Positions 10,552-25,466 of a DNA stretch of 64,000 nt are shown one piece after another. Each line of letters begins with the position of its first letter. The stretch's first letter is position 1. Under the pieces are notes generated by a model. It saw nothing but the letters and a program-made list of their open reading frames with translations, searched no databases and had not been told where the DNA came from. Origin of the DNA: Acidobacteriota bacterium (lineage in GTDB: Bacteria; Acidobacteriota; Terriglobia; Terriglobales; Acidobacteriaceae); NCBI GenBank assembly GCA_013289795.1, contig JABCZH010000003.1:186001-250000 (forward strand). The letters are read 5' to 3'. The position numbers were made by a program, and so were the translations under genes.

Positions 10552-10597
10552 ATGGTGCGCCCTGAGAGATTCGAACTCCCGACCTTCTGGTTCGTAG
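10552..10597 (+). repeat. Left attachment site: 46-bp copy of tRNA-Arg(ACG) 3' part
   Basis: Positions 10552-10597 are identical to 25421-25466 over 46 bp. The shared sequence is the complement of the tRNA 3' end, from the encoded CCA through the T arm into the anticodon loop; it diverges right after the anticodon. Duplicated tRNA 3' ends are the usual mark of tyrosine-integrase insertion. The 5' half of the tRNA is absent here, so this copy is not a working gene. Confidence 0.92.
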
Positions 10598-10735
10598 TCC
10601 GATTCTGCCCTACACGCTGGACAAGGCAGCACACCTAAGTGCAAGAAAAAACTGAAGAACCGCTTTGGTTTGCTCGTTCTGTTTTGGCTCACTTTGGTTC
10701 ATGTTCACGGACAAAAGGCGGTACAATCGCCCACA

Positions 10736-11092
10736 GTGTCCCGCAAGGTCAATTTGAAAATCGTTCTTGCCGTTGCGAACTTGGTGGGACTGTCTTGCGG
10801 CTTGGTTGGCGGTTTGCTTCTGGTATACGCTCTCACCTTGAAGCCCTCTCAATTCCGGCTGGTGGAAACTAGCGACGGTAACATGGCTCTATGTCTGAAG
10901 GACAAGCGCGTAGCGACGGGTTATGGGGGGCCGCTTGGTGTTACGGATGAACCATGCCCCGAGTGGCAACACACCGGGCCAACAGCCGAGGTCGTCACGG
11001 AGAAGCCAGCATACGTGCCTTGGGGAGTCCGGCTCATCATCATTGGTTTCGTCCTTCAACTCCCAGCGGCTATCGCGGCACTGTGGTCATGA
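10736..11092 (+). CDS. Hypothetical membrane protein (element cargo)
   Basis: About 118 residues with two transmembrane helices, one near the N-terminus (LVGLSCGLVGGLLLVYAL) and one at the C-terminus (GVRLIIIGFVLQLPAAIAAL). Between them is a soluble loop with two cysteines and the segment PLGVTDEPCPEWQ. GTG 10736 is preferred; the frame also opens with a TTG at 10670, but neither start has a good ribosome site. I do not recognise a family. It is the first gene inside the left attachment site. Confidence 0.5.
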   Translation: MSRKVNLKIVLAVANLVGLSCGLVGGLLLVYALTLKPSQFRLVETSDGNMALCLKDKRVATGYGGPLGVTDEPCPEWQHTGPTAEVVTEKPAYVPWGVRLIIIGFVLQLPAAIAALWS

Positions 11093-11154
11093 TGTGCCCC
11101 AGCAGGGTGTCGCAAGCTGCGGGTAGAATCTCGATTTCCCGGAGGCGAGACGAA

Positions 11155-11508
11155 ATGTTCACACTCATGAAATCAGTAGGGTTGTTGCTTCTCCTTCCAG
11201 TCGTGGCGCTTGCCCAAGAACATGCGCCAACCGTGGAGCAGTGCAGGGCCGATGCAGCAGTGTGGTCTGCTAAAGATGCGGATATCAAGACCCCCGCGAT
11301 GAAAGAACTATGGGCACGGGTACACGAGATGAACCAGTGCTTGGAGGTTGACCCAGTAGAGAGCGCACACGACTACACGTTCAAGTACATCTCGGTCTCA
11401 AACACGGTTGGCCGGGAATATGAAAGCCGAGTTATTGATTTTCTCAACAGACACGACCCAACTTGGAAGCAACGATTTGATGACGAAGACGCGGCTGGGA
11501 AACGATAG
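11155..11508 (+). CDS. Hypothetical secreted protein (element cargo)
   Basis: One hundred and seventeen residues. GGAGG at 11141-11145 is well placed before ATG 11155, and the N-terminus is a textbook signal peptide (MFTLMKSVGLLLLLPVVALA, cut before QEHAP). The mature part of about 95 residues is acidic and helical with two cysteines (VEQCRADAAVWS and EMNQCLEVDP) that could form a disulfide. No family is recognised. The gene lies 62 bp after the membrane-protein gene in the same direction. Confidence 0.68.
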   Translation: MFTLMKSVGLLLLLPVVALAQEHAPTVEQCRADAAVWSAKDADIKTPAMKELWARVHEMNQCLEVDPVESAHDYTFKYISVSNTVGREYESRVIDFLNRHDPTWKQRFDDEDAAGKR

Positions 11509-11521
11509 AAGTGGGCGTGGG

Positions 11522-11695
11522 CTACTTTGAACTTTTGCCAACCGTTGCTTCTAGGGTGTGAATCTCTCGGCTAATCTTCTCTATCCGCGCCTTGATTTCA
11601 ATTGCCACGTGCCCTAAATCCGGTCTCGTCTCCAGTTCCGGCAAGAGCTTTTCCAGGAAGGCCAATTCGTCTTTCAATATTGGCAGCCGAATCAT
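11522..11695 (-). CDS. Small helical protein, 57 residues
   Basis: An ATG at 11695 opens a 57-residue frame rich in Glu/Lys/Leu with heptad-like spacing (ILKDELAFLEKLLPELE, AIEIKARIEKISREIHTLEA), so a short coiled coil is likely. No Shine-Dalgarno is visible, but TATAAT occurs on the same strand only 8 nt before the ATG, which would fit a leaderless transcript. It converges on the secreted-protein gene ending at 11508. No family is recognised; coding potential is judged from composition only. Confidence 0.45.
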   Translation of the reverse strand: MIRLPILKDELAFLEKLLPELETRPDLGHVAIEIKARIEKISREIHTLEATVGKSSK

Positions 11696-11961
11696 GGCCC
11701 GAAATTATACGCTCGACGCAGAAAAACCCGCTCCCTTTCGGGCACGGCGGCATCAATGCTAAGTGTGGGGCTTCCCACGACCGGTTGACCGCCGGACTAC
11801 TGTAGTTCTCTATATGCATTCTTGGCCCGACCTGGGCCGCAGTTCGTGAAAAATTTACATCGCACCCCAAAATAAATGTGCCTTTTCGCCCAAAGTTGTT
11901 CCGCGAAATCGGTATATCATAACGGGCACTTTTTCCAAGCCTGCCCCCCAAAAGGAGAACT

Positions 11962-12237
11962 ATGAGCACTCAGCCAATAGGAACAAATCTGTGGGCAAGA
12001 TTTTGGCCGGTTTTTTGGAAACTGGTAAAGGGGGCGTGTGACGCCAACCAACTCAAGTGGCCAATCCGTATCGTAGCTAAGCATGAGAGCGATGAACTTT
12101 GGGACATGCCCAGTGTTCCGCAGAATGGCCAAGTGCAAATTGTTGGAACTCTGACACCTGCCGTCTTCCCGATAGATTTCGAGATCACCGATGCTGATGG
12201 CCAAAAGTTCGCTTTCACGATGCCGACGTGCCCGTAG
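11962..12237 (+). CDS. Hypothetical protein (element cargo)
   Basis: Ninety-one residues; AGGAG sits 5 nt before ATG 11962. The N-terminal third is aromatic and basic (LWARFWPVFWKLVKGACD) and may lie against the membrane; the rest looks like a small beta-rich domain (GQVQIVGTLTPAVFPIDFEITDADG). No signal peptide and no known family. The next gene starts 11 bp downstream, so the two probably form an operon. Confidence 0.6.
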   Translation: MSTQPIGTNLWARFWPVFWKLVKGACDANQLKWPIRIVAKHESDELWDMPSVPQNGQVQIVGTLTPAVFPIDFEITDADGQKFAFTMPTCP

Positions 12238-12248
12238 GAGAAGACGCC

Positions 12249-12587
12249 ATGCCGAAACGCAACCTTGACCATGCAGTCCAGAAGCCTTTGACCGAACCGA
12301 GGATGATTGACAAAACCTACCCAGACCCGAACGGAACAAGGCACAAGCGTTACAGCGTAAAGCTAAACCGCTGCTGGAATGACTCTGGAACCGGAATTCG
12401 ATGTGAGTATGTGATTGTGGACAAGGAAACGCAGTCCGACTTCTGGCCGCCTGACAAGCCGAATCCGTTAGGGCTGCTCGGTGCTTACGGGTTTCGCACC
12501 CGTGAGGCTGCTCGGGCATGGCTGAAAAAAACCACTGTTCGCAGGTTCAAAATTTTGGAAGTCCGCAACGCCCTAGATGGGATTTAG
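12249..12587 (+). CDS. Hypothetical protein (element cargo)
   Basis: One hundred and twelve residues. The chosen ATG at 12249 has GGAG about 9 nt upstream, partly within the end of the previous gene; a GTG seven codons earlier is less well placed. The protein is basic with conserved-looking aromatic clusters (IRCEYVIVDKETQSDFWPPD, GAYGFRTREAARAWLKK). The C-terminal GFRTREAARAWLKK is typical of short helical AP2/Arm-like DNA-contacting segments but too short to assign. Translationally linked to the gene ending at 12237. Confidence 0.6.
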   Translation: MPKRNLDHAVQKPLTEPRMIDKTYPDPNGTRHKRYSVKLNRCWNDSGTGIRCEYVIVDKETQSDFWPPDKPNPLGLLGAYGFRTREAARAWLKKTTVRRFKILEVRNALDGI

Positions 12588-13233: not shown

Positions 13234-13262
13234 TGGCCACCTCTCCTGCTAGTTGTTTCGAT

Positions 13263-13472
13263 TTAGAAGTCCAGCGCAATTTCCCTTGCGGTCTTCACCA
13301 CCAGCCGACGCAGGGCAATGCGGGTCTGCAAGGTTTCCGGCTTGCGGGCCAAATGGACGATTGCCCGGAGCAAGCGGTCGGACTCATTCGCCCCATCCCG
13401 CTGATGCTCGCCCTTGGCTGGGATAGGGCGGGCTGCAATCGAAGAGAGCGGGCGCGGGGAAATCAGTTCCAT
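13263..13472 (-). CDS. Hypothetical protein, 69 residues
   Basis: A short basic protein with a disordered N-terminus (ISPRPLSSIAARPIPAKGE) and a helical C-terminal half (ESDRLLRAIVHLARKPETLQ, RIALRRLVVKTAREI) that could bind nucleic acid or a partner. No clear ribosome site. It lies directly upstream of the small membrane protein gene and downstream of the protease gene on the same strand. Confidence 0.45.
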   Translation of the reverse strand: MELISPRPLSSIAARPIPAKGEHQRDGANESDRLLRAIVHLARKPETLQTRIALRRLVVKTAREIALDF

Positions 13473-13549: not shown

Positions 13550-14398
13550 TCACTTTGGCTGAAAATCGTCGGCCACCTTTGGCCCAATCGGATGCTTACG
13601 AATCAAGTCCACCGCGAATGCTATGTCATGAGCGAATGCGATGCCAGTATTCAACCGAACAAAATCGGTTGTCTCCTGGGTGATCTTGTAGGATTTTTGA
13701 TGGTACTGGAGGATACGGGATTCTTGCTTATCCTCGGCAGTGATTTGCGCCGGGGCCACCTCTTCCGTCTTTAGCACTGGCCCCGCCTCCGACAAGAAAG
13801 ACACAACAACGCCTGCAACCTTGAACGTCACTTGGCTCTTTGTGGAATCACGGAACACTACAGGGGAACCGGAGAAACCAGGATTGTTGTATCCATCCAA
13901 CACAATAATCGAACCCTTGTCAGGAACTAACGGGATCATTCCAGACAACGTGGCTTTCTTAACCAAGGGCAGCGGATAGCCGCCAGCCAATTTAAGTCCG
14001 GTCGTGATCCCATAAGGAAATCCGAGGAAGGAGGTTTCGCCACCAAAGAACACTCCCTCCGCTGTCGCTTCTAGGGGGAAATTTACGGATAGCTGCGATG
14101 GTGGAATCAACACAGCAATGTCCACGGGATCATCGCATCGAAATACTTTGACAGTGAGCGGAAACCACTGGTCGTTTTTTCGGATTTGAATCCTGTCATC
14201 TTCCTTCATGCCCTTGACGACATGCTTGGCCGTAATAAGATACTGCCGACCATCGACCTCGATGGTGAACGCTGTCCCGCCTTCGACTGGCCCCTGAACA
14301 AGAAACACTCTCTCGAAAACGTTGCTCGTCATCTGTGCGTTAACGACCGTAGTGAACATCGCGAGAACTACAAGGAACCTCGAAATCAGAGACTGCAT
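13550..14398 (-). CDS. Exported trypsin-like serine protease (element cargo)
   Basis: A 282-residue S1/trypsin-like peptidase. ATG 14398 is chosen because GGAGGTGA precedes it and it opens a signal peptide (RFLVVLAMFTTVVNA). The catalytic triad is visible: His 59 in TAKHVV, Asp 93 in DDPVDIAVL, Ser 176 in NPGFSGSPVV. There is no PDZ domain, unlike DegP/HtrA. The last 100 residues, with a long Gln/Glu-rich piece, match nothing I know. A secreted protease carried by a mobile element could serve competition, envelope remodelling or host benefit; which of these is not shown by sequence. Confidence 0.85.
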   Translation of the reverse strand: MQSLISRFLVVLAMFTTVVNAQMTSNVFERVFLVQGPVEGGTAFTIEVDGRQYLITAKHVVKGMKEDDRIQIRKNDQWFPLTVKVFRCDDPVDIAVLIPPSQLSVNFPLEATAEGVFFGGETSFLGFPYGITTGLKLAGGYPLPLVKKATLSGMIPLVPDKGSIIVLDGYNNPGFSGSPVVFRDSTKSQVTFKVAGVVVSFLSEAGPVLKTEEVAPAQITAEDKQESRILQYHQKSYKITQETTDFVRLNTGIAFAHDIAFAVDLIRKHPIGPKVADDFQPK

Positions 14399-14666
14399 TT
14401 TACTCACCTCCTGGGTGAAGGAATTATGCACCTGAATTAGTCCACTTCAAGCGGATTTAGGCAGGTTCATGTTCCCCATTTTTGTAGGTTTTCCGTGAGC
14501 GACCAATGCGGTGTTTAACTTATTTATTTTCTATACTTTAGCCTTTCTTTCTGGTACAAGAATCAAGGGAAAAAGACCGAGCGGCACCGCCGGAAAACGG
14601 GCAACGCTGTCGCATCAGGCAAACCCGTGCTCATCAGGGGCGCGTGGGTCGCAGTCTGGGCAATGG

Positions 14667-14770
14667 GAGCCGAGCCGACGCTCTGACGGGCAAGCTGTGA
14701 GAGTAAGCGAACCGTTGTGGCTGTGTTAGACAACGCACGCTGAGGGTACAGCAGGGGATCGGCTCGGCTC
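14667..14770. repeat. 12-bp perfect inverted repeat flanking 80 bp, upstream of a FimB-like recombinase
   Basis: GAGCCGAGCCGA at 14667-14678 is the exact reverse complement of TCGGCTCGGCTC at 14759-14770. The pair frames 80 bp and lies 154 bp before the recombinase start, within a stretch (14399-14924) that has no convincing gene. It may be the border of an invertible segment, the closing stem of an RNA, or a chance pair; no promoter could be identified inside it. Confidence 0.5.
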
Positions 14771-14797: not shown

Positions 14798-14906
14798 AAA
14801 ACGCAACCGTTTACTCATAGTGTTGCGTTCCGGGAGTGAATCACGGTCGCAACCGCTTTGCTTGCGTGCATCCGATTTTCGGGAGTTACGACGTAATGTT
14901 GCGTTT
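14798..14906. repeat. Repeated GTTGCGTT / CGGGAGT motifs before the recombinase
   Basis: GTTGCGTT occurs at 14822 and 14898 and inverted (AACGCAAC) at 14800-14807. CGGGAGT follows the first copy (14831-14837) and precedes the second (14880-14886). Such mixed direct and inverted copies directly upstream of a recombinase may be its binding or core sites, or operators for its promoter. Confidence 0.4.
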
Positions 14907-14924
14907 CGTATCCAGGAGAAAACC

Positions 14925-15521
14925 ATGAAGAGAGCAAATCGCAATTCGATGACGTTTCTCACCCCGGCTGAAGTGTTGGCTGTGCTCCGTACCGCCAAGC
15001 AGTCCCGCGTCCGGGACTGGGCCATGATACTGCTTGCCTATCGGCACGGGTTTAGGGCCAGTGAGGTTTGCAGTCTGCAACTGGCCGACGTTGACCTGAA
15101 GAATCAAAGCGTCGTCGTACAGCGCCTCAAGGGTTCACTGAAGACCACACAGCCGCTCTACCCGCATCGTGGAATGCCTCTGCTGGATGAGCCAACGGCT
15201 CTAGGTGCGTGGATGAAGCAACGGCCCGACGATGGCAGCCCATTTCTGTTCGTCAGTCAAAAAGGCGGGCGTCTCTCCCGTTCTGCATTCTTTCGCGCTT
15301 TCCAGGCGATTGCAGAAGCCGCTGGGTTGCCGGTTGAGAAACGGCACCCGCACTGCCTGAAACATTCTCTGGCGTCTCATCTCGTGGCATCCAATGTCAA
15401 TCTGGCGTTGGTCAAGCAGGCGTTGGGTCATCGGTCGATTTCGAGCACTCTGCAATACGTCGGAACGACCGACGCGCAAGCTGCCACGGCAGTGCAGTCG
15501 GCAATGATGGCAACGTTCTAG
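14925..15521 (+). CDS. Minimal tyrosine recombinase (FimB/FimE-like size)
   Basis: A 198-residue catalytic-domain-only tyrosine recombinase; it lacks the N-terminal core-binding domain of ordinary integrases, as in FimB/FimE invertases. AGGAG is 6 nt before ATG 14925. Catalytic residues visible are Arg 44 (GFRASEV), Lys 69 (RLKGS), His 143, His 169 (LGHRS) and Tyr 178 (TLQYVG). In the H-x-x-R box the Arg is replaced by Lys (HCLKHS, residue 146), which I believe occurs in some short recombinases but lowers certainty about activity. It may act on the nearby inverted repeats or help resolve the element. Confidence 0.85.
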   Translation: MKRANRNSMTFLTPAEVLAVLRTAKQSRVRDWAMILLAYRHGFRASEVCSLQLADVDLKNQSVVVQRLKGSLKTTQPLYPHRGMPLLDEPTALGAWMKQRPDDGSPFLFVSQKGGRLSRSAFFRAFQAIAEAAGLPVEKRHPHCLKHSLASHLVASNVNLALVKQALGHRSISSTLQYVGTTDAQAATAVQSAMMATF

Positions 15522-15858: not shown

Positions 15859-16254
15859 TCACAAAACTTTTCCCCACGCGGCAATCTCTAACCGTTCCAT
15901 CTCCGCATCGGGCAGCACGCCTTCAATCCGCGCTTTGCGGAGTGCCGCTCTCGCGGGGGCGTGTTGCTTGTACCAATCGTGAGCACCAGCCCCAGCCGCC
16001 CGCTTGCGGAAGTCGCCATGCGCTGAGGCATTGCGCTGGGCGTCAGTGACGGTGATGCCGGTAAGTTGTTCGACCAGCCAGGACTTTTCGATTTCGGCAA
16101 CGATGCCGGTGCTATCCGAAAAGCCGGTTGCCTCTGGGAGTGTGATTGTCGGTTCCGGCGTTCGCGTCGCGCTGCGCTCAAGATTGAATCGGCTTGACTC
16201 ATCGCCCAGCAAATCGTCGGCGAATTCCGGCAGTAGGATTCCATCTAGCTTCAT
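15859..16254 (-). CDS. Hypothetical protein, last gene of the small minus-strand operon
   Basis: One hundred and thirty-one residues. The ATG overlaps the stop of the upstream gene as ATGA, so the two are translationally coupled. The protein is soluble and acidic at its N-terminus (KLDGILLPEFADDLLGDESS), then helical, with a C-terminal segment (HDWYKQHAPARAALRKARIEG) that could contact nucleic acid. No family recognised. Confidence 0.6.
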   Translation of the reverse strand: MKLDGILLPEFADDLLGDESSRFNLERSATRTPEPTITLPEATGFSDSTGIVAEIEKSWLVEQLTGITVTDAQRNASAHGDFRKRAAGAGAHDWYKQHAPARAALRKARIEGVLPDAEMERLEIAAWGKVL

Positions 16255-16508
16255 GGTGTCACCCCGCTTGTGTTGCCACTGTAAAACGGCTGTGGCCCCG
16301 TGCCTGCAATCATGGGTGCGGTACTCAAGATTGGCGTGCCTTGTTGCTCGGTTTGAACCAACGAACTGACAAAAGTCTCGGTCGCAGATTCGCTCCGGCC
16401 TGTGTTTTGCGTGATTGCGCCCGAAGGCGATTGCGGAACCGTGATGGTGCCGGTTGCCGGTGGTGTCACTCCGTAGGCAACATCATTAGGGCCAGGTGTG
16501 TAAGTCAT
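16251..16508 (-). CDS. Hypothetical Thr/Ser/Pro/Gly-rich protein
   Basis: Eighty-five residues of low complexity rich in Thr, Pro, Ser and Gly, with no predicted helix and no signal peptide (YGVTPPATGTITVPQSPSG). GGAGG is well spaced before ATG 16508. The composition resembles disordered linker or tail-decoration pieces in phage proteins but cannot be assigned. It sits in the middle of the five-gene operon and overlaps the next gene by four bases. Confidence 0.55.
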   Translation of the reverse strand: MTYTPGPNDVAYGVTPPATGTITVPQSPSGAITQNTGRSESATETFVSSLVQTEQQGTPILSTAPMIAGTGPQPFYSGNTSGVTP

Positions 16509-16587
16509 TTTCAGTGAACCTCCAAGTTTTGTTTGGCAACTGACGCGGCCTTGAGCGCCTGGTCGAAACGAAATTCAGCCGCTCGAA

Positions 16588-16749
16588 TCAGACCAGGTAG
16601 GGCAAGGTATTGCGGTCAAGCTGGGCGCGGATTTCGTCTATCGCCACAACTCGCGGATTGACGTTGGCCGCTTCCGCCGTGGCCAACTGCGACTGCAAGG
16701 CCACGACTTCTGCCGCAAGATTGGGTGATTCAGTTCGCTCTGTTCTCAT
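16588..16749 (-). CDS. Small coiled-coil protein with an open out-of-frame continuation
   Basis: Fifty-three residues from ATG 16749, which has GAGGA 6 nt upstream and overlaps the end of the preceding gene by 20 bases. The middle is a helical, coiled-coil-like stretch (LAAEVVALQSQLATAEAAN). After its stop, the frame one base behind stays open from 16615 to 16511 for 34 codons with protein-like composition (QYLALPGLIRAAEF, DQALKAASVAKQ) but no start codon of its own. A -1 frameshift, programmed or mutational, would join the two into one helical protein of about 80 residues. Confidence 0.5.
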   Translation of the reverse strand: MRTERTESPNLAAEVVALQSQLATAEAANVNPRVVAIDEIRAQLDRNTLPYLV

Positions 16750-17236
16750 GGTCGTCCTCATTTTTCTCGTTTGTGATGTACGCGACTCCGACCAGCCATT
16801 GCTGGAAGTCATCGACCAGTCCTTTTGAAATCAGCCATTCAGTGAATTGGCGCACTCTCCCCACGTCGCCCCAAGAACTGTGGCAGCAGTGGCAGTGCGC
16901 ATATTGCTTGGTCTGGGCGGTGCGAAGCAGTGAATCCAAATGATCCCGGATGATCTGGTCTCTCGTCTCTTGCGATATTCCGGCCTGTGCGCCAGCGGCT
17001 TTCTCGGCTTCCAGTGTGTCGCGCCACTCGGCCAAACCTCTGAAAGCTGCCTGCAAACTTGATGCTTGCGACCTTAAATCACCCGCCAGAACCGCTGAAT
17101 TCCATAGTTCATGGCAATGCGTTCGCCAGACCGATAGCTCTTCAGAAAAAGTCGGCAAGTCGAAGTCCTCAAGGTGAGCGGAGACTGGCCGGTCATCTTC
17201 GGGAAGATCGTCTTTACGAAGATCGTCTTCGATCAT
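16730..17236 (-). CDS. Hypothetical acidic protein with a CxCC cluster
   Basis: One hundred and sixty-eight residues. ATG 17236 overlaps the stop of the upstream regulator as ATGA; the frame opens earlier, but that part is the regulator gene read out of frame. The N-terminus is very acidic (MIEDDLRKDDLPEDDRP), the middle helical, and a Cys/His cluster (YAHCHCCHSSWGD) suggests a metal site followed by RVRQFTEWL. No family recognised; the coupling to a DNA-binding protein points to a role in element control. Confidence 0.62.
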   Translation of the reverse strand: MIEDDLRKDDLPEDDRPVSAHLEDFDLPTFSEELSVWRTHCHELWNSAVLAGDLRSQASSLQAAFRGLAEWRDTLEAEKAAGAQAGISQETRDQIIRDHLDSLLRTAQTKQYAHCHCCHSSWGDVGRVRQFTEWLISKGLVDDFQQWLVGVAYITNEKNEDDHENRAN

Positions 17237-17613
17237 AGCGGCGCTCCTTCCGAGAACGATTTCAGCGTGGAAAGTTTTATTCGCCAATGGCCATGCCGGG
17301 GCGTGGTCTTGGTCGCGGCAATCGCTCCGGTGCGGGCCAGCCGCCTCAGCGTTGACACGGAGAGTCCGGCAACCACGGCGGCTTCGGGCAAACGCACCGC
17401 GGGGTCGCATAGCACGCCGTCCATGAGTCCGGCACGCCTCGCGGCCATCTTTTCTAGCTGGATGTAGTAGGAAGAACGGCTACCAAGCGGGCGTCCGTTT
17501 TTCTTGGCTGGTTGCGGGGAATCGAGTACGACCGGATTTGGCACAATGCTCCTGTCCACCATGAGATTCAGCGGCGTGACAGGATCGCCCCGGAGGGATG
17601 GCTGAACGAACAT
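17233..17613 (-). CDS. Putative DNA-binding regulator, first gene of the minus-strand operon
   Basis: One hundred and twenty-six residues. A basic piece with an AT-hook-like core (AKKNGRPLGSRSS) is followed by a helix-turn-helix resembling the excisionase/MerR-like class (LPEAAVVAGLSVSTLRRLAR) and a wing-like segment (GHWRIKLSTLKSF). It starts next to the GTCAC/GTGAC-rich region, so it may bind those repeats to control replication or its own operon, which is inference from position. An internal ATG at codon 18 is an alternative start. Confidence 0.6.
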   Translation of the reverse strand: MFVQPSLRGDPVTPLNLMVDRSIVPNPVVLDSPQPAKKNGRPLGSRSSYYIQLEKMAARRAGLMDGVLCDPAVRLPEAAVVAGLSVSTLRRLARTGAIAATKTTPRHGHWRIKLSTLKSFSEGAPL

Positions 17614-18081: not shown

Positions 18082-18819
18082 CTAATGCGCTTTCTTCCCG
18101 CGCAACTTCGCCCGGCGTCTGCGGGTGCGTTGACGGCCACTGCATTGAGGTTTGCAATATTGCTGGTCAAGCCGGTCAGGGATAAAGGGCTTATCGCAAC
18201 CGGGGCACGCCCGCAAGTCCCGCAGGACAGCGTGCACGTACATCGCGGTCTTGTAATCCGGGCAGAAGATGGCCGGTAGGAACCGCTTGCGACGGTTATT
18301 CCACCACAGCACCAACCGTGCGGACTCCATCTCGTGCGCCATTGCCGGGGGAAGATTCACCGGGGCGGTCTTGGCTGACCAAGTGGGATGCGACCAGAAC
18401 CCGGCTATCCGGCTGACCATCGCAGCATGTTCCTCGGGCGGGTTGGCGGGAAATCCCTTGGGTGCCTTTGGGGGGAGCATGGTAGCGAATAGCTTCTGGT
18501 TGGCAGCGTCAATCTCGTAGCTGTCGCCCTTCTCGTGGGCGTCCCGGAGTTGGTTGGACGCAATAAACAGGTTCCAGTTCTGACCCGGCATGGATTTCCG
18601 TACTGCCTTATTGAGTTCGCTGCCTTCCCTGAGATATTCCGCGCCAAACATCCTTACCGGCTGCAACGGCTTCCGCTGATCGAAGTTGGCTAGGCCGTCG
18701 AAATCGCGCCGTTTGATTTGTTCCGGCGTGGCCTTCACCAGCACCGGCAAAGGTGTGCTGTAACGGGGTGTCACGGTCTGACTGCTGGTAACGCTCTTTT
18801 TCCTAGGGCGTGTCGGCAT
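18082..18819 (-). CDS. Zinc-finger protein of the element, unknown function
   Basis: A 245-residue protein. ATG 18819 is preferred to one 23 codons upstream because it opens a basic start (MPTRPRKKS) and leaves the intergenic operator-like palindrome free. The body is helical without a known domain; the C-terminus has a treble-clef or ribbon-like Cys pattern (ACPGCDKPFI...QQYCKPQCSGRQRTRRRR) ending in a strongly basic tail, so nucleic-acid binding is likely. It reads toward the candidate origin and is divergent from the HTH gene at 18875. Confidence 0.65.
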   Translation of the reverse strand: MPTRPRKKSVTSSQTVTPRYSTPLPVLVKATPEQIKRRDFDGLANFDQRKPLQPVRMFGAEYLREGSELNKAVRKSMPGQNWNLFIASNQLRDAHEKGDSYEIDAANQKLFATMLPPKAPKGFPANPPEEHAAMVSRIAGFWSHPTWSAKTAPVNLPPAMAHEMESARLVLWWNNRRKRFLPAIFCPDYKTAMYVHAVLRDLRACPGCDKPFIPDRLDQQYCKPQCSGRQRTRRRRAKLRGKKAH

Positions 18820-18833
18820 AGCTTCTATAAGCT
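18820..18833. promoter_or_regulatory. Small palindrome between divergent regulators
   Basis: AGCTT-CTAT-AAGCT directly before the zinc-finger gene start, in a 55-bp divergent intergenic space. It could be an operator shared by both genes; arms of 5 bp are short and chance is possible. Confidence 0.3.
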
Positions 18834-18874
18834 GACCACAGTTCGCCGTACAAATCAAACTTCGCAGGTGATGG

Positions 18875-19096
18875 ATGGAAGAAAGCACGAGAAGCGGAAA
18901 GGGCTTGCGGGGACTCTTGAACGTTCCTCAATTCGCGGAAGCGACGGGCTGGTCGGAGTCCACAGTCCGGCAACGGGTCTGGTTGCGCCAGATTGAGTTT
19001 GTCCGCATGGGCCGCTCCATCCGGTTCAAGCCGGAGACGGTCGAGCAATTGATTCGGGAAGGGACGGTTCTGCCGTTAATGGAAAAGCAGGATTGA
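18875..19096 (+). CDS. Excisionase-like helix-turn-helix protein
   Basis: Seventy-three residues of the excisionase/HTH_17 type: NVPQFAEATGWSESTVRQRV forms the helix-turn-helix and IEFVRMGRSIRFKPETVEQL is the typical winged second half. AGGTG precedes the ATG closely. Such proteins bend DNA for excision or regulate transcription (AlpA-like). Divergent from the zinc-finger gene and first in the rightward set, it may regulate the primase operon or assist the integrase. Confidence 0.78.
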   Translation: MEESTRSGKGLRGLLNVPQFAEATGWSESTVRQRVWLRQIEFVRMGRSIRFKPETVEQLIREGTVLPLMEKQD

Positions 19097-19179: not shown

Positions 19180-19539
19180 ATGCACCATACCGTACAACCC
19201 TGGTACAAGGCAACTCCAATTACCGTCCCCGACTCGCTCACCGAAATGATTGAGCGGGTTCTGGCTGGCAAGCCTAATGCGGATTTTTCTTTTCAGTTTT
19301 CCGTTCCCCCGGCTGAGATTTGCCACGTCGCGCCCTGTAGCTTTTGCCGTCAATTGACCTTGCCACTCTCTCTCGCAAATGGCGATGGGTATGACTCCAC
19401 GGTCTTCACAGATGCGGACGGCGAACTGCGCTGCGACGTGTCTCCACATCTGTGCGCCGGGAGCAAGCAGCACCGCGAATTCTTGAATGCACCAGAGCCG
19501 GAAGAGTTCGATTTCGATTCCCTGGAAGAGACGCAATGA
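19180..19539 (+). CDS. Hypothetical Cys-containing protein upstream of the primase
   Basis: One hundred and nineteen residues from ATG 19180. It has Cys residues in EICHVAPCSFCRQL and in the C-terminal half (LRCDVSPHLCAGS), which could form a zinc site, and an acidic end (PEPEEFDFDSLEE). Its stop overlaps the primase start as ATGA, so the two are made together and may interact. No known family. Confidence 0.65.
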   Translation: MHHTVQPWYKATPITVPDSLTEMIERVLAGKPNADFSFQFSVPPAEICHVAPCSFCRQLTLPLSLANGDGYDSTVFTDADGELRCDVSPHLCAGSKQHREFLNAPEPEEFDFDSLEETQ

Positions 19540-21668
19540 CCGCGCCTGCAAATCTGCGTCCCAGCGATCTGGCGATGTTCGCCCGGCTGGGAATTTCGCC
19601 AGAGCTTCTCACACAAGCCAGCATCCGGCGTGTGACTGACGAAGAGGCGCGGGCCGATTTCGGGTTTAACAGTTCTGGCGGCAACTCTGGAATCGTTTTC
19701 CCGTATATCAACCCCGCCACCGGCTTCCGCGCCACGGCCCGGTTGCGCCGTGACCATCCAGAAATCGAAATCGAGGACGGGAAAGAGAATCCGAAAAACA
19801 AGTACGTCATTCCCGCCTTGGACAAACGTCATCTGTACTTCGTTCCGGGTTCCAAGGCTCGGTTGGACAAACCACACATGCCGGTGTGCTTGGTGGAAGC
19901 GGAGAAATCGGCTCTGGCGCTGTGGGCTTGGGCGGAGCGCATGGGCCGCGATCTTGTGCCGGTTGCAACCGGCGGTTGTTGGGGTTGGCGCGGAAGAATC
20001 GGAAAGGCGGAGACTGCCGACGGCAAGGGCACTGCGGAAGTTGGGCCGCTTCCTGATCTGATTCTTTGCGCGAAAGACCGGCTGGTCTATGTACTGTTCG
20101 ATGCCAACGCGCGGACGAACTGGAAGGTACGGGCCGCACGGATTGCCTTGGTTGACCAGCTAGTGAAACTGAAAGCGACGGTCAAGGTTCTCAACCTGCC
20201 CGTGGCCGAAGGGGTGAATGGGCCGGACGATTTCATTGCCATTAACGGTGACGAGGCTATGGAAAAAGTCTTTGATGCCGCGCCTGAGTCGGACATTGAT
20301 TCCCCGAATTTCAGCGAGGACTGGTTAAGTCTGCGATTCACCGCTGCCCACGGTTCCAGGCTACGTTTCACGGACACTACGGGACGCTGGCATCTGTGGA
20401 CGGGCAAGGTTTGGACGGAGGACAAGGCGAACCTTGTCCACGATCTGGCGCGGGAAATCTGTCGGCAGGCGGCTTTGGAATTTGATTCCATCACGCCAGG
20501 GAAAGGGAAATCACTTGCCAGCGCCAAGGTGGTTTCTGCCGTGGAGCGTCTTGCCCGCAGTGACACACGGCACGCGATTACCGTGGAGGAATGGGACGAT
20601 CACCCCAAACTCTTGAACTGCGATAACGGGATGGTTGACCTTACGACCGGCCAACTGCTGGCCCACGCTCAGGGTTTCTATGCAACCAAGATCACGGGTG
20701 CGGAACTGGCCGCGCCCGGCACGCCCACGCCGCTATGGTCTGCGTTTCTCAACCGCATCACCGCCGACAATTCCGAACTGGAAGCGTACCTGCGTCGTGT
20801 CGCTGGGTACTGTTTGACCGGACTAACGACGGAGCAATGTTTGTTCTTTGCCTTTGGCACCGGCGCGAACGGCAAAAGCGTTTTGCTGGGCACGCTGATG
20901 GGAATCTTGGGCAGCTACGGCAAGACCGCAAGCATGGAAACCTTTCTCGCTTCCTCAGTCGCCCAGCATCCGACTGACCTTGCCAGCCTACACGGTGCGA
21001 GGCTAGTTGCCAGCGCGGAGACGGAAAAAGGCCGACGTTGGGACGAAGCGAAAGTCAAAGCCCTGACCGGTGGCGACCGCATCGCAGCCCGTTACATGCG
21101 GCAAGATTTCTTTGAGTTCACGCCGGTTTTCAAGTTGCTGGTCACTGGCAATCACCGGCCTGCTCTCCGCAGTGTGAATGAAGCAATCCGGCGACGGATG
21201 CACCTGATTCCTTTCGCGGTCGAAATTCCCCCAGCCGAACGCGACCCGCTGCTAACCGACAAACTCAAAGCGGAGTGGCCGGGGATTCTCCGCTGGGCGG
21301 TAGACGGTTGCCTTGAGTGGCAATCCACGGGACTAAACCCGCCTGCGGTAGTGCGGGCAGCAACCGAGGAATATCTGGCTGAGGAAAACACCGTCGAACG
21401 CTGGATTGAATCTGCCTGCGTTCTCAAAAACGGTTACTTCAGCAGCACTGCGACCTTGTACCGAGATTGGAAAACTTGGGCGGAAGCGATGGGTGAGTTT
21501 CCAGGTAGCGTCAAGAGCTTTGCCCAAAGTTTGGAACAAGTGGAGGACATCTACCGGCACCGCACGAACGACGTTCGCGGCTTTCGCGGGATTGCCCTGC
21601 GTCATGGCGATCACCAGACGGTAGACGCCGGTGAGAGCAACGCGGGCGAGAAGGATTCGATTCAATGA
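19536..21668 (+). CDS. D5-type primase-helicase (Toprim-like domain plus SF3 helicase)
   Basis: A 710-residue replication protein. The frame opens earlier, but ATG 19536 overlaps the preceding stop (ATGA) and begins the real protein. Residues 1-260 look like a DUF3854/Toprim-like primase part (MPVCLVEAEKSALALWAWAE, VYVLFDANARTNWKV). A D5_N segment follows, then the SF3 helicase with Walker A GTGANGKS (441-448), a Walker B-like ARLVASAETEKG and motif C ending in LLVTGNH (Asn 539). This is the type used by phages, P4-like satellites and integrative plasmids to start replication; it should act at the iteron region to its left. Confidence 0.92.
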   Translation: MTAPANLRPSDLAMFARLGISPELLTQASIRRVTDEEARADFGFNSSGGNSGIVFPYINPATGFRATARLRRDHPEIEIEDGKENPKNKYVIPALDKRHLYFVPGSKARLDKPHMPVCLVEAEKSALALWAWAERMGRDLVPVATGGCWGWRGRIGKAETADGKGTAEVGPLPDLILCAKDRLVYVLFDANARTNWKVRAARIALVDQLVKLKATVKVLNLPVAEGVNGPDDFIAINGDEAMEKVFDAAPESDIDSPNFSEDWLSLRFTAAHGSRLRFTDTTGRWHLWTGKVWTEDKANLVHDLAREICRQAALEFDSITPGKGKSLASAKVVSAVERLARSDTRHAITVEEWDDHPKLLNCDNGMVDLTTGQLLAHAQGFYATKITGAELAAPGTPTPLWSAFLNRITADNSELEAYLRRVAGYCLTGLTTEQCLFFAFGTGANGKSVLLGTLMGILGSYGKTASMETFLASSVAQHPTDLASLHGARLVASAETEKGRRWDEAKVKALTGGDRIAARYMRQDFFEFTPVFKLLVTGNHRPALRSVNEAIRRRMHLIPFAVEIPPAERDPLLTDKLKAEWPGILRWAVDGCLEWQSTGLNPPAVVRAATEEYLAEENTVERWIESACVLKNGYFSSTATLYRDWKTWAEAMGEFPGSVKSFAQSLEQVEDIYRHRTNDVRGFRGIALRHGDHQTVDAGESNAGEKDSIQ

Positions 21669-22375
21669 TGGACACCAGGTCATTGCGACGGTTGGTTAAG
21701 ACCATCGAGAGCGAAGGCGGGAGCTTTGTGCCAACTGACCACTTCATGCAGGTTGATTTGCCCGACGCGCTGGTGAGTATGGCCGACACGGTGCGGGAGA
21801 ACAGTGATGCGCTTTACGCCCTGCTCTTTCCGCCCAAGCGGTGGCCACGAAAGAAGCGCAGTACGTGTGCGATTTGCAAGAGCGGGGCCGGATGCCGCAA
21901 ACGTCAAGCCATCAAGGAATACCAGCTTTGCCCGGTTTGTTCGCACTGGTGCGCGAGTCATTTCTTGGCGGAAAGTCATTCTGTCGCTGGGTGCATGTGG
22001 AGGCTCGGGCACACTTCGAGCGACATGGTGCGCTGCCAATGTCCGGGCTGGCCACCACCGGTAGAGCCGGTCAAGACCCGCAGGAAAAACATTCAACCGC
22101 AGGAGAACTCGATGCCGCTATTTTCTGAATCCGAAGTATGTGCGATGCGCGAACGCCACCTGCAAAAGCAGGCCGCGCTAGAAGGCGAACGACCAAAGAC
22201 GAAAGCGCAAATTTTGGTTGACCTGGTTTGCGCCGACCCGAGCTACACGGTCGCGGAACTGAGTGAAGGCAGCGGGCACAGCAAGAGTTGGGTGCGAAAG
22301 CATCTGCGGGCGGCTGGGCTGAAGGCAGCACCGGGGATACGGCAACGAAATCCAGAATCGGAGGCAGCGCGATGA
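21665..22375 (+). CDS. Cys-rich protein with C-terminal helix-turn-helix
   Basis: A 236-residue protein whose ATG overlaps the primase stop. The middle holds a Cys cluster (CAICKSGAGCRKR, LCPVCSHWCASH, RCQCPGW) that probably binds zinc. The C-terminal 60 residues form a helix-turn-helix (YTVAELSEGSGHSKSWVRKH). The two halves may act in origin recognition or in regulation of the operon. No full-length family is recognised. Confidence 0.65.
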   Translation: MMDTRSLRRLVKTIESEGGSFVPTDHFMQVDLPDALVSMADTVRENSDALYALLFPPKRWPRKKRSTCAICKSGAGCRKRQAIKEYQLCPVCSHWCASHFLAESHSVAGCMWRLGHTSSDMVRCQCPGWPPPVEPVKTRRKNIQPQENSMPLFSESEVCAMRERHLQKQAALEGERPKTKAQILVDLVCADPSYTVAELSEGSGHSKSWVRKHLRAAGLKAAPGIRQRNPESEAAR

Positions 22376-22710
22376 CCAAGAAACAGAAGCAACAAGTGCA
22401 AGAAGTTCTTGATGTCTTGGACAGGAAACCTGCCCCCCTGAGTCCGCTGGAGAGAATCGGGGAGAAAATCTTCTACCTTCGCCGCAGACCTAATGTTGGC
22501 GTGACCATTCGCTTGTCCCACTCGGAAGCTGATGCGCTTAAAGCCATTTTGCCTAAGCACCGAGAGCTTGATGAATGGGAGGAAGTTGCATACCCATTCC
22601 GTGACCAAATTCGCCGCGAAGTCCGCGTGTGGGGGTTGCGTCAGGAGAAAGCAGCACCGGCACCACGTCGATGGAAGGCAGAACCACCGGTAGAGGGGGA
22701 AGCGCGATGA
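22372..22710 (+). CDS. Hypothetical basic protein in the primase operon
   Basis: One hundred and twelve residues, coupled to the previous gene by an ATGA overlap. It starts with a Lys/Gln-rich helix (MTKKQKQQVQEVLDVLDR) and has a central segment (VTIRLSHSEADALKAILPKH) like a small helical domain, with a basic, Pro-rich tail. No known family. Confidence 0.6.
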   Translation: MTKKQKQQVQEVLDVLDRKPAPLSPLERIGEKIFYLRRRPNVGVTIRLSHSEADALKAILPKHRELDEWEEVAYPFRDQIRREVRVWGLRQEKAAPAPRRWKAEPPVEGEAR

Positions 22711-23546
22711 GCTATCCACCACCACCTTCCCCTCCGCCGGGAATATTTACACAATGGACAAACACATTTTGCGCGTGCGGGAAGCCACATTATCGTCGAT
22801 CTATGTGTGATAGCAACGGCAAATTGTGGTATCCGCCATACGAAGTATTTTGCGTGCGCGGGCACAGTGAAGTGCTATTGAGTCCAACACCATCGCCGGA
22901 AGAATTTGACCGGGGATACTCGCACCAATCTTGGCAATTACGCCGGGAAGAAAAGCCGGTGCGCCATCGCCAAGGATTCGCCGTCCCCAGTGAGTGGATA
23001 TTCGCCTACGTCGGCAAGCTGGGTCGTGACCGTACCTATTGGAAATCTTCCCGCGTCAGGCGGATACCCGTCCGGGCGAAGGGCAAAGGCGTTAGAACAC
23101 TTTCGTTCGAGGACGCGGGTAAGGCAATCCGAATCCTGATGCGTGAGCTAGGAGCACGTCCCTATTGCAATTCCAACAGGAACTCCTACCTAGACCGAAT
23201 TGACCACAGCAGGAGATTGGATTACCGGATGGTCATATGGGACGTGCGCCGGGAGCCAAACCAAAAATGCGCCGCGATTGACGGCCCCAACCTGTTCTCG
23301 GGTACCCGTCCCGCATCCCGCGTAGAGAAAGCTGCCGCCGCGCTGGTTGCCGCCGGAATCACTGATTTCAGGGTGACTTTCCACGGCTGGCTTTATATCC
23401 GCGTGCCCAAGGATTGCTTTGCCTGTTCTTTCTACGGTTCGGATGACCCGCAGGAGTGGGCGCGAAAAGACAAGCAGCGGCATGACGCGATTGTGAGGCG
23501 CAAGAAGATTCGCGAGACCTTGGCGGCGCTGGACGGTGCGGCGTGA
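22707..23546 (+). CDS. Hypothetical protein with N-terminal Cys motif
   Basis: A 279-residue protein coupled by ATGA overlap to the gene before it. It opens with a Pro-rich stretch, then FCACGKPHYRRSMC, possibly a zinc knuckle. The rest is basic with mixed helix and strand and ends in a charged helix (DKQRHDAIVRRKKIRETLAAL). Nothing identifies a function; the operon position suggests a role in DNA metabolism or replication of the element. Confidence 0.6.
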   Translation: MSYPPPPSPPPGIFTQWTNTFCACGKPHYRRSMCDSNGKLWYPPYEVFCVRGHSEVLLSPTPSPEEFDRGYSHQSWQLRREEKPVRHRQGFAVPSEWIFAYVGKLGRDRTYWKSSRVRRIPVRAKGKGVRTLSFEDAGKAIRILMRELGARPYCNSNRNSYLDRIDHSRRLDYRMVIWDVRREPNQKCAAIDGPNLFSGTRPASRVEKAAAALVAAGITDFRVTFHGWLYIRVPKDCFACSFYGSDDPQEWARKDKQRHDAIVRRKKIRETLAALDGAA

Positions 23547-23776
23547 CCACGTTTTGCATTCTCTGCAAAGAGACCATCCCGGAGTCACGCCAGCGCCGTG
23601 GGGCCGTGACTTGCTGCCCGGAGCACCAGCGCGAGTACCGGCGGCAGAGACGTGCAGAGCGGTCGCTGCGAAATTGTCGGCTCTGTGGACGGAAGGCACG
23701 GAAAGCGAAGCCGGTAGAGGCTGTGCTTCAGGAGCACAGCGAGATTACAGAGCAGGCAAACCCAGCAGGAGCATGA
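23543..23776 (+). CDS. Small double zinc-finger-like protein
   Basis: Seventy-seven residues beginning with GTG in a GTGA overlap with the preceding stop. Two Cys pairs are visible: FCILCKETIP with TCCPEHQREYRR, and NCRLCGRK. The first half resembles a treble-clef finger of the kind seen in phage and HNH-associated small proteins; the Arg-rich centre fits DNA or RNA binding. Confidence 0.65.
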   Translation: MTTFCILCKETIPESRQRRGAVTCCPEHQREYRRQRRAERSLRNCRLCGRKARKAKPVEAVLQEHSEITEQANPAGA

Positions 23777-23786
23777 AAGGGGGCGT

Positions 23787-24134
23787 ATGGGCGGACGAGA
23801 AACACTCGAAACAGTCATGCAGTTGGCCCATCAACTGGCCCCCGAGGAATTACCTCGTTTCCTTGGCCAATTGGAAGAAGCCCGCGTTACCGCATTCGCC
23901 CGGCTATCCGCGCCCGTGCCTGCCCAGCAGCAAGCCGACGAACTGCTGGGCGTTTCCGAAGCGTCTCACCGGCTTGGCATCTCTCGGGATTATCTCTACC
24001 GGCATCATGGGGAATTTGACTTCACTCGTCGCCAAGGAAAACGATTGCTTTTCTCGGCATCCGGCATCGAACGTTACATTCGAGGCACAGGCGCTTTGAC
24101 GCCTAGACGCCGCACTGCTACAGTGACGCCATGA
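23787..24134 (+). CDS. Excisionase-like DNA-binding protein next to the integrase module
   Basis: One hundred and fifteen residues. The N-terminal half is helical (LETVMQLAHQLAPEELPRFL); the C-terminal half is a helix-turn-helix of the excisionase class (LLGVSEASHRLGISRDYLYR) followed by FDFTRRQGKRLLFSASGIERY. It lies two genes before the integrase and overlaps the next gene by ATGA. It probably acts as directionality factor or repressor for integration and excision. Confidence 0.75.
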   Translation: MGGRETLETVMQLAHQLAPEELPRFLGQLEEARVTAFARLSAPVPAQQQADELLGVSEASHRLGISRDYLYRHHGEFDFTRRQGKRLLFSASGIERYIRGTGALTPRRRTATVTP

Positions 24135-24289
24135 AACCGAAACCCGAACCAATGGCGAGAGCGACCATGCGGCTGCCACAATCGCTCTGGGATGCTGTGC
24201 AACATCGGGCCATCGACGAGCACATTGCTCTGTCAGAACTTGTGGCCAAGGCACTGACCGAGTATCTGAAGAAAGGGGCACGTCAATGA
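24131..24289 (+). CDS. Ribbon-helix-helix-like small protein
   Basis: A 52-residue protein between two ATGA overlaps (with 24134 and with the integrase start). The sequence fits a ribbon-helix-helix domain: a strand (MARATMRLPQSLWDAVQH) and two helices (RAIDEHIALSELVAKALTEY), ending KKGARQ. Such proteins bind operator DNA as dimers, so it may control the integrase or plasmid-like copy number. Confidence 0.75.
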   Translation: MKPKPEPMARATMRLPQSLWDAVQHRAIDEHIALSELVAKALTEYLKKGARQ

Positions 24290-25353
24290 GAGGCGACGGG
24301 CGCATTTTCAAGCGTGGCGAGAACTGGTGGATTTCGTTTTACGTTGACGGCAGGGAACAGCGTGAAACGGCCCGGACTACTGACGAGGCCAAAGCCCAGA
24401 AGTATCTGCGGGCGAAACTGAAAGAAGTTCACGCCCATGAGCTAGACCCCAGCAAGCCATTCATCACCCAACACGACCGCAGGCGCACTGTCGCTGACCT
24501 AATGGACGCCCTGAAAGCCGATTTCAAGATACGCGGCAAAGCCAGCAGTCAGAATCTCTCGAACATCAAGCGGGCACGGGCCGACTTCGGCAGACTGCGG
24601 GCGACGGCTCTCACTGCTGAAGCCGTAGACCAGTACATGGAAAAGCGGCTGACCGATGGAGACGCAGAAGCCAGCATCAACCGGGTGACACAGCTACTCA
24701 AGCAGGGGTTCGTACTCGCGGAACTTCCCGCCCCGAGGATTCGACGGCTTGACGAGTCGGGCAACGTGCGCCGTGGCTTTTTCTCCGAGTCGGAGATTCG
24801 ACGGGTAATGGCAAACCTGCCGAGTGCCTTGGCTGACTTCACACTGTTCGCGTGGCTCACCGGGATGCGGAAGTCGGAGATTGCCTCACTGCGCTGGGAA
24901 GATGTTGACGGTGATTGCATCCGCTTGCGGGCGGAGAACGCCAAGAATGGCAACGCCCGATTGATTCCGCTAGAGGGGGAGTTGTCCAAGCTGATGGCAC
25001 GGCGCAAGGTAGCACGGCAGGTCAAGGTCAACGGCAACCCGGTGATGCTGTCGGCCCTGATTTTCCATCGCGAGGGCGAACCAATCCGGGAGTTTAGAAA
25101 GTCGTGGGCCACGGCCTGCAAGAAGGCTGGAATCAATCGGCTGTTTCACGACCTGCGACGTAGCGCCTGCCGGAACATGCTTGCCGCGGGTGTCTCACAG
25201 GTCACGGCGATGGCGCTATCTGGTCACAAGACCGATTCGATGTTCCGGCGCTATTGTATCGTCTCAGAGACCGATTTGCGGAAGGCTCTGCGGGCTACGC
25301 AGCAATACCTGGCCACGGCGAAAGAGAGTGTGGTCGCAATGGCCAAGAAATAG
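24286..25353 (+). CDS. int: Tyrosine integrase of the element
   Basis: A 355-residue phage-type integrase. An Arm-like N-terminal domain (FKRGENWWISFYVDGREQRE), a core-binding domain (about 65-150) and the catalytic domain (about 165-340) are in order. Catalytic residues: Arg 195 (TGMRKSEI), Lys 220, His 288 and Arg 291 (HDLRRS), His 314 (SGHKT), Tyr 323 (FRRYC). The gene ends 67 bp from the attachment site inside tRNA-Arg(ACG), the normal place for an integrase that uses a tRNA. It is the last gene of the coupled operon, so integration may depend on replication-module transcription. Confidence 0.95.
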   Translation: MRGDGRIFKRGENWWISFYVDGREQRETARTTDEAKAQKYLRAKLKEVHAHELDPSKPFITQHDRRRTVADLMDALKADFKIRGKASSQNLSNIKRARADFGRLRATALTAEAVDQYMEKRLTDGDAEASINRVTQLLKQGFVLAELPAPRIRRLDESGNVRRGFFSESEIRRVMANLPSALADFTLFAWLTGMRKSEIASLRWEDVDGDCIRLRAENAKNGNARLIPLEGELSKLMARRKVARQVKVNGNPVMLSALIFHREGEPIREFRKSWATACKKAGINRLFHDLRRSACRNMLAAGVSQVTAMALSGHKTDSMFRRYCIVSETDLRKALRATQQYLATAKESVVAMAKK

Positions 25354-25382
25354 AACACGGACAATTCACGGACAAATTCAAA

Positions 25383-25406
25383 AGGGCACCCATCGGCGGG
25401 TGCCCT
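25383..25406 (+). terminator. Hairpin terminator after the integrase
   Basis: AGGGCACCC and GGGTGCCCT pair perfectly (9 bp) around ATCGGC and are followed by AAGTTATT, a weak T-containing tail. It lies between the integrase stop and the tRNA and would stop operon transcription before it runs antisense into the tRNA. Confidence 0.65.
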
Positions 25407-25420
25407 AAGTTATTGAAATG

Positions 25421-25466
25421 ATGGTGCGCCCTGAGAGATTCGAACTCCCGACCTTCTGGTTCGTAG
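25421..25466 (-). repeat. Right attachment site within tRNA-Arg(ACG)
   Basis: Identical over 46 bp to 10552-10597. It covers the 3' part of the tRNA from the CCA to the anticodon loop, so integration keeps a complete tRNA at this end. Confidence 0.92.

Follow-up and report, generated by a model that had tools for sequence, protein, structure and literature searches.

An integrated 14.9-kb element with a P4-family primase-helicase in an acidobacterial tRNA-Arg(ACG) gene: a possible phage satellite

Introduction

Between two copies of the 3' half of a tRNA-Arg(ACG) gene, contig JABCZH010000003.1 of an Acidobacteriota bacterium (assembly GCA_013289795.1; family Acidobacteriaceae) carries a 14.9-kb unit that encodes an integrase and a primase-helicase. 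The unit lies at 10552-25466 of the window, the 64-kb stretch of that contig analysed here, and raises the question of what kind of mobile element it is—a phage satellite, a prophage stripped of its virion genes, an integrative plasmid, or several islands stacked on one another. Because of its gene set, size, origin layout and siblings, the best fit is a satellite resembling the phage-inducible chromosomal islands (PICIs) or the phage-inducible chromosomal minimalist islands (PICMIs), or a replicative island derived from such a satellite, a reading to which we assign a probability of about 0.55. We do not place it strictly within any known satellite family.

Named satellite families have their hosts among Gram-positive cocci, Enterobacterales, Pasteurellaceae, Vibrionaceae and cyanobacteria/actinobacteria, as outlined in PMC6092414, PMC10803314 and PMC11389934. 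A survey of acidobacteria lists 35 putative prophages, six of them devoid of virion genes, and remarks that elements of this sort may be satellites (PMC5900883). No report of a phage satellite in acidobacteria was found within the limited literature collection searched, and the element may be a satellite of a kind that this collection does not record for the group. With its ends delimited, siblings at the same site and an origin predicted, such a family provides material to induce and sequence.

Integration into tRNA-Arg(ACG)

The integration anatomy of the unit is well supported. An initial annotation, made from the letters of the window, had described a 46-bp tRNA-derived direct repeat and an integrase adjoining the intact tRNA, and both stand: the two attachment (att) repeats are exact over 46 bp, the far one being a copy of the tRNA 3' half, and a repeat finder stretches the pair to 51 nt at 96% (Table 1). 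The tRNA is the sole match of the Rfam scan; ARAGORN calls no tRNA at the far att, and the idea of a tRNA-like gene there was rejected. In genome G210, tRNA-Arg(ACG) and tRNA-Arg(TCG) are 30 bp apart with nothing between them, while the related element L245 sits between the same two genes, which together identify an unoccupied site at the level of the family. The empty site anticipated in related genomes is thus present in the family and was not found within the species, the left-flank proteins of the window having no match (E<=1e-8) in 20 loci (L074-L093) around family or order copies of tRNA-Arg(ACG), several of which are short.

A 100-bp stretch just beyond the far att (10452-10551) opens with a tRNA-Arg 3'-end fragment and has related stretches beyond the att copies of L245 and L082, which suggests that this tRNA has been used repeatedly. 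Its interpretation as a dispersed repeat was rejected, the genome holding one full copy.

The motif CACGGACAA occurs three times in the window, each time adjoining an att repeat; 0.89 copies would be expected by chance in 64 kb, and three or more were reached in 7 of 100 shuffles. In the window element and the five cousins compared with it, the motif, exact or varied, is found at 43-78 bp from the core on the integrase side and at 104-162 bp on the far side, an arrangement common to all six. The form CACGGACA is shared by the window element, L245, L246 and L247, the last with a single integrase-side copy, and variants are TCGGACA in L250 and GGGCACAG in L074. On the model of phage lambda, these copies may be integrase arm sites. 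The integrase would then join an attP, in which CACGGACAA sites lie on either side of the tRNA 3' half, to tRNA-Arg(ACG) by a recombination that leaves the tRNA restored, and the HTH_17 (helix-turn-helix, HTH) and ribbon-helix-helix (RHH)-like proteins encoded before int could, by analogy with PICMIs, act as excisionase and partner.

Virion, conjugation and helper genes

Twenty open reading frames (ORFs) were compared with Pfam and 20 with PHROGs at E<=0.1, 22 different ones in all, with other small ORFs outside the scan. No virion or transfer family was matched among them save for a terminase-small match at E 0.093 for the HTH protein at 18875, the sole virion-type match, so that, with this exception, the initial description of an element without structural or conjugation genes holds for the ORFs scanned. 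The terminase, portal, capsid and tail genes of a complete prophage were not found among them, nor did the 20 ORFs put to Pfam match a relaxase or conjugation-ATPase family such as would mark an integrative mobilizable or conjugative element. Apart from the primase and the integrase, the longest ORF of the element is 305 aa. As no capsid or tail gene was recognised, spread of the element would need the virions of a helper phage. We infer helper-dependent packaging only from the terminase genes of the siblings described below.

Three virion families were searched for in seven genomes (G000, G639, G633, G084, G405, G474 and G461). None matched the capsid family PF05065; the portal family PF04860 was found in G084, G405 and G633, each time on a contig other than that of the element, and PF03237 was found inside the element in G633 and outside it in G474, G405 and G084. 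According to PMC11389934, hitchers also occur in some genomes that have no possible helper.

Siblings at the same chromosomal site

Integrase searches covered 396 genomes of the phylum, 18 of which (the host's own included) gave matches at E<=1e-45, and 399 genomes of the class, 33 of which did so; the two samples overlap. A search for cousins bounded by tRNA-Arg(ACG) repeats, as the initial annotation had recommended, found three in genomes of the same family, all next to HMA and CopA genes as in the window, all with homologous integrase and HTH genes, and two of the three with a superfamily 3 (SF3) primase.

The closest sibling, L245 (G639), belongs to another genus than the window host and measures 9370 bp, with intact ends and a 48-bp repeat. 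It keeps the order primase, Cys protein, HTH protein and integrase, at identities of 52% (over 697 aa), 39%, 49% and 47%, respectively. Primase and integrase aside, no L245 ORF exceeds 208 aa, so that a terminase large subunit, a portal or a tape measure would hardly fit, and two further L245 proteins had no match in the family libraries. L246 (G633; 14,463 bp, 51-bp repeat) encodes a D5 primase, an HTH protein (57%), an RHH-like protein and an integrase (48%); among nine proteins scanned are also a TerL (PF03237 1.7e-24, PF17289 3e-15) and a weakly TerS-like protein (phrog_1206, E 0.0012), and the portal and capsid families tested had no match inside the element. L074 (G084; 16,215 bp) has HTH, RHH and integrase proteins at 51%, 72% and 46%, a head-maturation protease (phrog_53, 1e-88), a weak replication-initiator match (E 0.0014), no primase match and a 933-aa ORF without PHROG match; although it occupies the site of the window element and has a head-protease gene, no full virion set was found among 10 scanned proteins, an observation that bears on the rule that prophages do not occupy the att sites of PICIs. 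More generally, no full virion set was recognised in the part of the small cousins' ORFs that was scanned. The three siblings support a family of integrative, probably replicating elements, and to this extent the satellite or integrative plasmid family proposed at the outset is upheld.

Integrase cousins in other tRNA genes

Eight further integrase relatives have a tRNA 3'-end repeat on their far side: L207/L219 33.4 kb, L213 14.5 kb, L214 8.3 kb, L215 15.8 kb, L216 12.3 kb, L247 14.8 kb, L250 6.4 kb and L256 9.4 kb. In L213, L215 and L216 this repeat spans no more than 24-29 bp. These three have TerL and tape-measure matches (tape measure about 1e-6 in L215 and L216), L216 also portal and TerS matches and L215 a RepA/primase-like helicase, and no full tail or capsid set was recognised among their scanned proteins; the sole scanned protein of L214 is a helicase. 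Large ORFs with tape-measure matches (L213:4965-8342, L215:4281-7682 and L216:13323-15749), weak in the last two, occur in tRNA-bounded elements of 12-16 kb. Neighbours at 35 integrase loci, many of them cut by contig ends, comprise HTH genes at 18, RHH genes at five, SF3 primases at three (by a profile of five primases) and TerL at five, four of the five TerL being the TerL queries themselves. In a tree of 31 integrases, the window integrase groups, with support of 96/94, in a set of nine that also includes those of L245, L246, L074, L247 and four others. L247, a tRNA-Asn island, also encodes a SIR2-like protein at 5309-6439 (PF13289, E 1e-4, below cut-off), possibly defence cargo.

These cousins bear on the possibility that the element is a temperate prophage reduced to its integration, replication and regulation genes by loss of those for the virion. 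Capsid or terminase genes beside homologous loci had been named in advance as the sign of an eroded prophage, and this was borne out by half: the nearest viral relative of the primase, L051, has tail-like genes on its 45.7-kb contig, is 53% identical in the primase and has a related HTH gene before it, some cousins with this integrase family carry TerL, portal, head-protease or tape-measure matches, and one cousin measures 33.4 kb, so that reduction from a prophage is possible. Against this, L245, a 9.4-kb element in another genus, has the same core order and intact ends, and none of its ORFs is of a length to encode the large virion proteins, which makes the same loss occurring twice less likely; moreover, the integrase, HTH and primase frames of the window element are open and its att repeats identical. 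Virion remnants were not recognised in the general scans, no search having been aimed at frameshifted structural remnants. On balance, a reduced prophage appears unlikely.

It is conceivable, and we put it forward tentatively, that the satellite reading extends to a phylum-wide family of tRNA-targeting satellites with one integrase-HTH(-RHH) module and a shared attP arm code (CACGGACA and variants), in which replication and packaging modules are swapped and origin geometry is kept while its letters change with the primase. The swapped modules would possibly be, with the same reserve, a primase alone, a primase with its own terminase, or a terminase and tape measure without a recognised full capsid set.

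Primase-helicase and its relatives

The D5/SF3 primase-helicase of the initial annotation is confirmed by PF08706, PF19263, PF12965, phrog_6088 (2e-131) and TIGR01613, 'phage/plasmid primase, P4 family', at 301.6 bits against a cut-off of 108.7. L051, besides its tail-like genes, carries integrases, and its HTH gene before the primase is related to the protein at 18875-19096. Among deposited phages, 1120 records match the primase, none over 80% of the query, the best being Acidithiobacillus phage AcaML1 (48.7% over 66% of the query). The primase also matches 407 plasmid records, and in genomes the matches listed comprise 80 loci, mostly of Proteobacteria and some of Acidobacteria. With relatives in phages and plasmids alike, the primase alone does not separate phage, plasmid and satellite.

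An integrative plasmid or mobilizable island would copy itself after excision and spread by conjugation or transformation without virions. Occurrence of the primase family on small plasmids of Thermaerobacter (8.5 kb) and Planctomyces (12.5 kb) is in keeping with such an element, as are the want of a recognised virion family and the fact that no helper was seen in its own genome. However, no relaxase or transfer-ATPase family emerged from the 20 ORFs compared with Pfam, and the terminase of the sibling L246 points to packaging. This explanation is improbable.

Candidate origin and repeat geometry

Replication of the element is plausible on the grounds of repeat geometry and homology. Eleven copies of GTGAC/GTCAC lie within 330 bp at 17751-18056, with a core of the form GTGAC-n4-GTGAC-AT-GTCAC-n4-GTCAC, and the AT content of the element peaks in a 60-bp segment (73% vs an element mean of 44%) that starts at 17862, inside the repeat region. 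For this motif, 300 dinucleotide shuffles of the element gave a mean of 3.4 and a maximum of 6; with any 5-mer allowed, 40 order-2 Markov simulations gave a mean of 9.1 and a maximum of 12 for the window element and reached 15 for L245. As these simulations reach 12, the GTGAC cluster alone is not significant; the iteron-like region of the initial annotation is present as a cluster, and its count is within chance when any 5-mer counts. L245 shows this layout at the corresponding place: 11 ATGAC/GTCAT lie in the interval that separates a minus-strand gene from the primase operon, and the six windows of L245 richest in AT fall inside it. Once the element is excised, the primase-helicase would unwind the AT-rich middle of 17751-18056 and supply primers for replication of the circle, and spread would then presumably depend on helper-phage virions.

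Relatives of the primase show a recurrent geometry. Between 60 bp ahead of the primase stop and 340 bp beyond it, inverted pentamer pairs with 8-11 bp periods were found in 62 of 97 testable loci vs 45 of 8349 other windows of the same loci, the set not being dereplicated. In the viral-contig set they occur in 44 of 71 loci vs 32 of 3783 windows, and in 14 of 22 loci after dereplication at 80%; 33 of the 44 have 9-bp periods on both sides, the median offset between pairs is 78.5, and half-sites number 16. Some phages may be common to both sets. Loci were left out if the primase match stopped short of residue 640 or if they extended less than 300 bp beyond the stop (9 of 80 in the viral-contig set). 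P4-family primases (L051-L183, L294-L373) are thus often followed by inverted pentamer pairs, mostly with a 9-bp spacing and some 78 bp from one pair to the next; their letters vary (GTGAC, CTGAC, ATGAC, GACGC, GTGCC, CGCCA, CCGTC) while the geometry stays. PICI origins, as summarised in PMC6092414, lie 3' of the replication gene and have repeats on both sides of an AT-rich region, and the stem-loop origin of pRN1 lies 3' of its SF3 replication gene (PMC4234260), so that the layout is known in kind. Since geometry is kept beside these primases while letters change, the specificity of primase for origin becomes directly testable.

Comparison with known satellites

Several features are shared with characterised satellites, and each comparison also brings out differences. 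Like PICIs as outlined in PMC6092414, the element is about 15 kb (14.9 kb), encodes an integrase, regulators and a primase, has two repeat sets around an AT-rich stretch at its candidate origin and, in the ORFs scanned, shows no structural or lytic genes; unlike them, it occupies a tRNA site, has its repeats upstream of the primase and is known here from its sequence alone, whereas PICIs are marked by induction, interference and packaging that depend on a phage. With the PICMIs of Vibrionaceae, as presented in PMC10803314, it shares the integrase, an ATGA-overlapping gene, an AlpA-type HTH_17 protein, a DUF5906 primase and the lack of recognised capsid genes, and the genes by which PICMIs are defined (integrase, AlpA as PF05930/PF12728, DUF5906/DUF3987 primase) are represented by PF00589, PF12728 and PF19263 over cut-off. 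In contrast to PICMIs, it sits at tRNA-Arg(ACG) rather than fis and has much cargo in its 14.9 kb; fis was optional in one of the searches of that paper (PMC10803314). P4-like satellites (PMC8628076) likewise combine an integrase, an AlpA-like HTH protein and a primase-helicase with SF3 domain, whereas the window primase has a DUF3854 N-terminus. Phages with a TIGR01613 primase, such as L051 and AcaML1, resemble the element in the C-terminal half of the primase and, in many relatives, in repeat pairs beside it; L051 differs by its tail-like genes from the window element with its lack of a recognised virion family, and AcaML1 is known here from its primase match alone. Two assignments were rejected: Psu, delta (Ogr) and epsilon of P4-like satellites had no Pfam match among the 20 ORFs, and the capsid and packaging genes that a capsid-forming PICI would own were not found, PF05065, PF04860 and PF03237 being without match in the host genome.

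A number of observations weigh against a satellite. No capsid-redirection gene, interference gene or convincing terS was recognised in the window element, and neither its own genome nor G639 matches any of the three helper families tried. The four tRNA-Arg(ACG) integrases do not form an exclusive clade in the 31-integrase tree, integrase cousins can carry terminase, head-protease, portal and tape-measure matches, and the closest primase relatives sit in phage contigs. With regard to the origin, the repeat clusters of the window and L245 are alone within chance when any 5-mer counts, a second stretch (14512-14576) is nearly as AT-rich (72%), and the window repeats lie upstream of the primase, not 3' as in PICIs, with no pair after the window primase.

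Gene rows and cargo

Table 1. Features of the element and its borders (window positions).
Feature	Position	Strand	Evidence or remark
att repeat, far side; displaced tRNA 3' half	10552-10597		46/46 identical
Small ORFs without family match, probable cargo	10670-12587	plus	
Third candidate arm site CACGGACAA, far arm	10706-10714	plus	109 bp inside far repeat
69-aa protein common with closest sibling	13263-13472	minus	37% to L245:12698-12910, E 3e-7
Trypsin-like protease, putative signal peptide (by eye)	13550-14431	minus	PF13365 3e-8
Short tyrosine recombinase, catalytic domain only	14820-15521	plus	PF00589 3.5e-35
Rest of minus-strand row: four small ORFs without family match	15859-17233	minus	
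HTH_17/excisionase-like protein, first of minus-strand row	17233-17613	minus	PF12728 4.1e-7
Candidate replication origin	17751-18056		GTGAC/GTCAC on both sides of most AT-rich stretch (17842-17921)
Protein with C-terminal Zn/HNH-like motif	18082-18888	minus	PHROG matches, E about 1e-3
HTH_17-like regulator, divergent from 18082-18888	18875-19096	plus	PF12728 2.6e-5, below cut-off
Protein without family match, ATGA-coupled to primase	19180-19539	plus	
D5/SF3 primase-helicase, N-terminal DUF3854	19536-21668	plus	Pfam, PHROGs, TIGR01613
Cys-rich protein (11 Cys), possible C-terminal HTH	21665-22375	plus	
Protein without family match	22288-22710	plus	
Protein without family match (Pfam, PHROGs), 8 Cys, start uncertain	22629-23546	plus	
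Small two-CxxC protein	23543-23776	plus	39% identical to L245:18011-18241
HTH_17/excisionase-like protein	23787-24134	plus	PF12728 1.4e-6; 49-57% in siblings
Small RHH-like protein, ATGA overlap with int	24131-24289	plus	weak Pfam; 72% identical to L074
Tyrosine integrase	24286-25353	plus	PF00589 5.5e-22; 45-56% identical in G084, G639, G633
Two candidate arm sites CACGGACAA, 11 bp apart	25356-25375	plus	between int and tRNA
att repeat, tRNA side	25421-25466		repeat comparison
Intact tRNA-Arg(ACG), integration target	25422-25498	minus	ARAGORN; Rfam RF00005 69.1 bits
HMA-domain gene and CopA beyond tRNA	25895-28639		synteny with siblings

The overlaps noted between genes of the plus-strand row are real, with ATGA at 19536, 21665, 24131 and 24286, and the row contains Cys-rich proteins without recognised family, as had been pointed out, with 8 and 11 Cys in two of them. 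HTH and RHH regulators are present as well: the HTH_17 proteins at 23787 and 17233 score over the Pfam cut-off and that at 18875 under it, and the RHH call is weak (PF12441 E 0.018, PF01402 E 0.076). The HTH protein at 23787-24134 also matches TIGR01764 at 8.7e-5, below cut-off; relatives of the regulator at 18875-19096 adjoin the primase in L051, L106 and L109, and the Cys-rich protein at 21665-22375 is 39% identical over 108 aa to the product of the gene directly after the L133 primase. A viral-contig search with the proteins 22707-23543, 18085-18816 and 16733-17233 found no relative; for the integrase, an alignment of three rows retrieved a single remote viral relative (30%) and one of five rows retrieved 27 (best 37%).

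The left third of the element is probably cargo. Its protease, a probable cargo gene, has a weak likeness to proteases of candidate defence systems (PADLOC LmuA 1.7e-9) and to SplB (3e-4), and weak protease matches were all that the PADLOC search for defence cargo returned. The second recombinase of the initial annotation is indeed there and is of the tyrosine type; an invertase model (PRK09870) matches it at 3e-31, below cut-off. Its presence, a further tRNA fragment beyond the far att and the lower G+C at 11-15 kb (51.6-53.2% vs about 55-60% in the rest of the unit) would suit a composite of at least two stacked islands, with the left part (10.6-15.5 kb), including the short recombinase, as a separate element. 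Yet a third complete att repeat is missing from the unit, a relative of the 69-aa gene at 13263-13472 lies inside L245, and the stretch beyond the far att has relatives in L245 and L082; a composite origin is therefore very unlikely. Upstream of the recombinase gene at 14820, a 12-bp perfect inverted repeat (GAGCCGAGCCGA / TCGGCTCGGCTC) in 19-nt arms 66 nt apart (14667-14770) could be the recombination site of the short recombinase or a hairpin.

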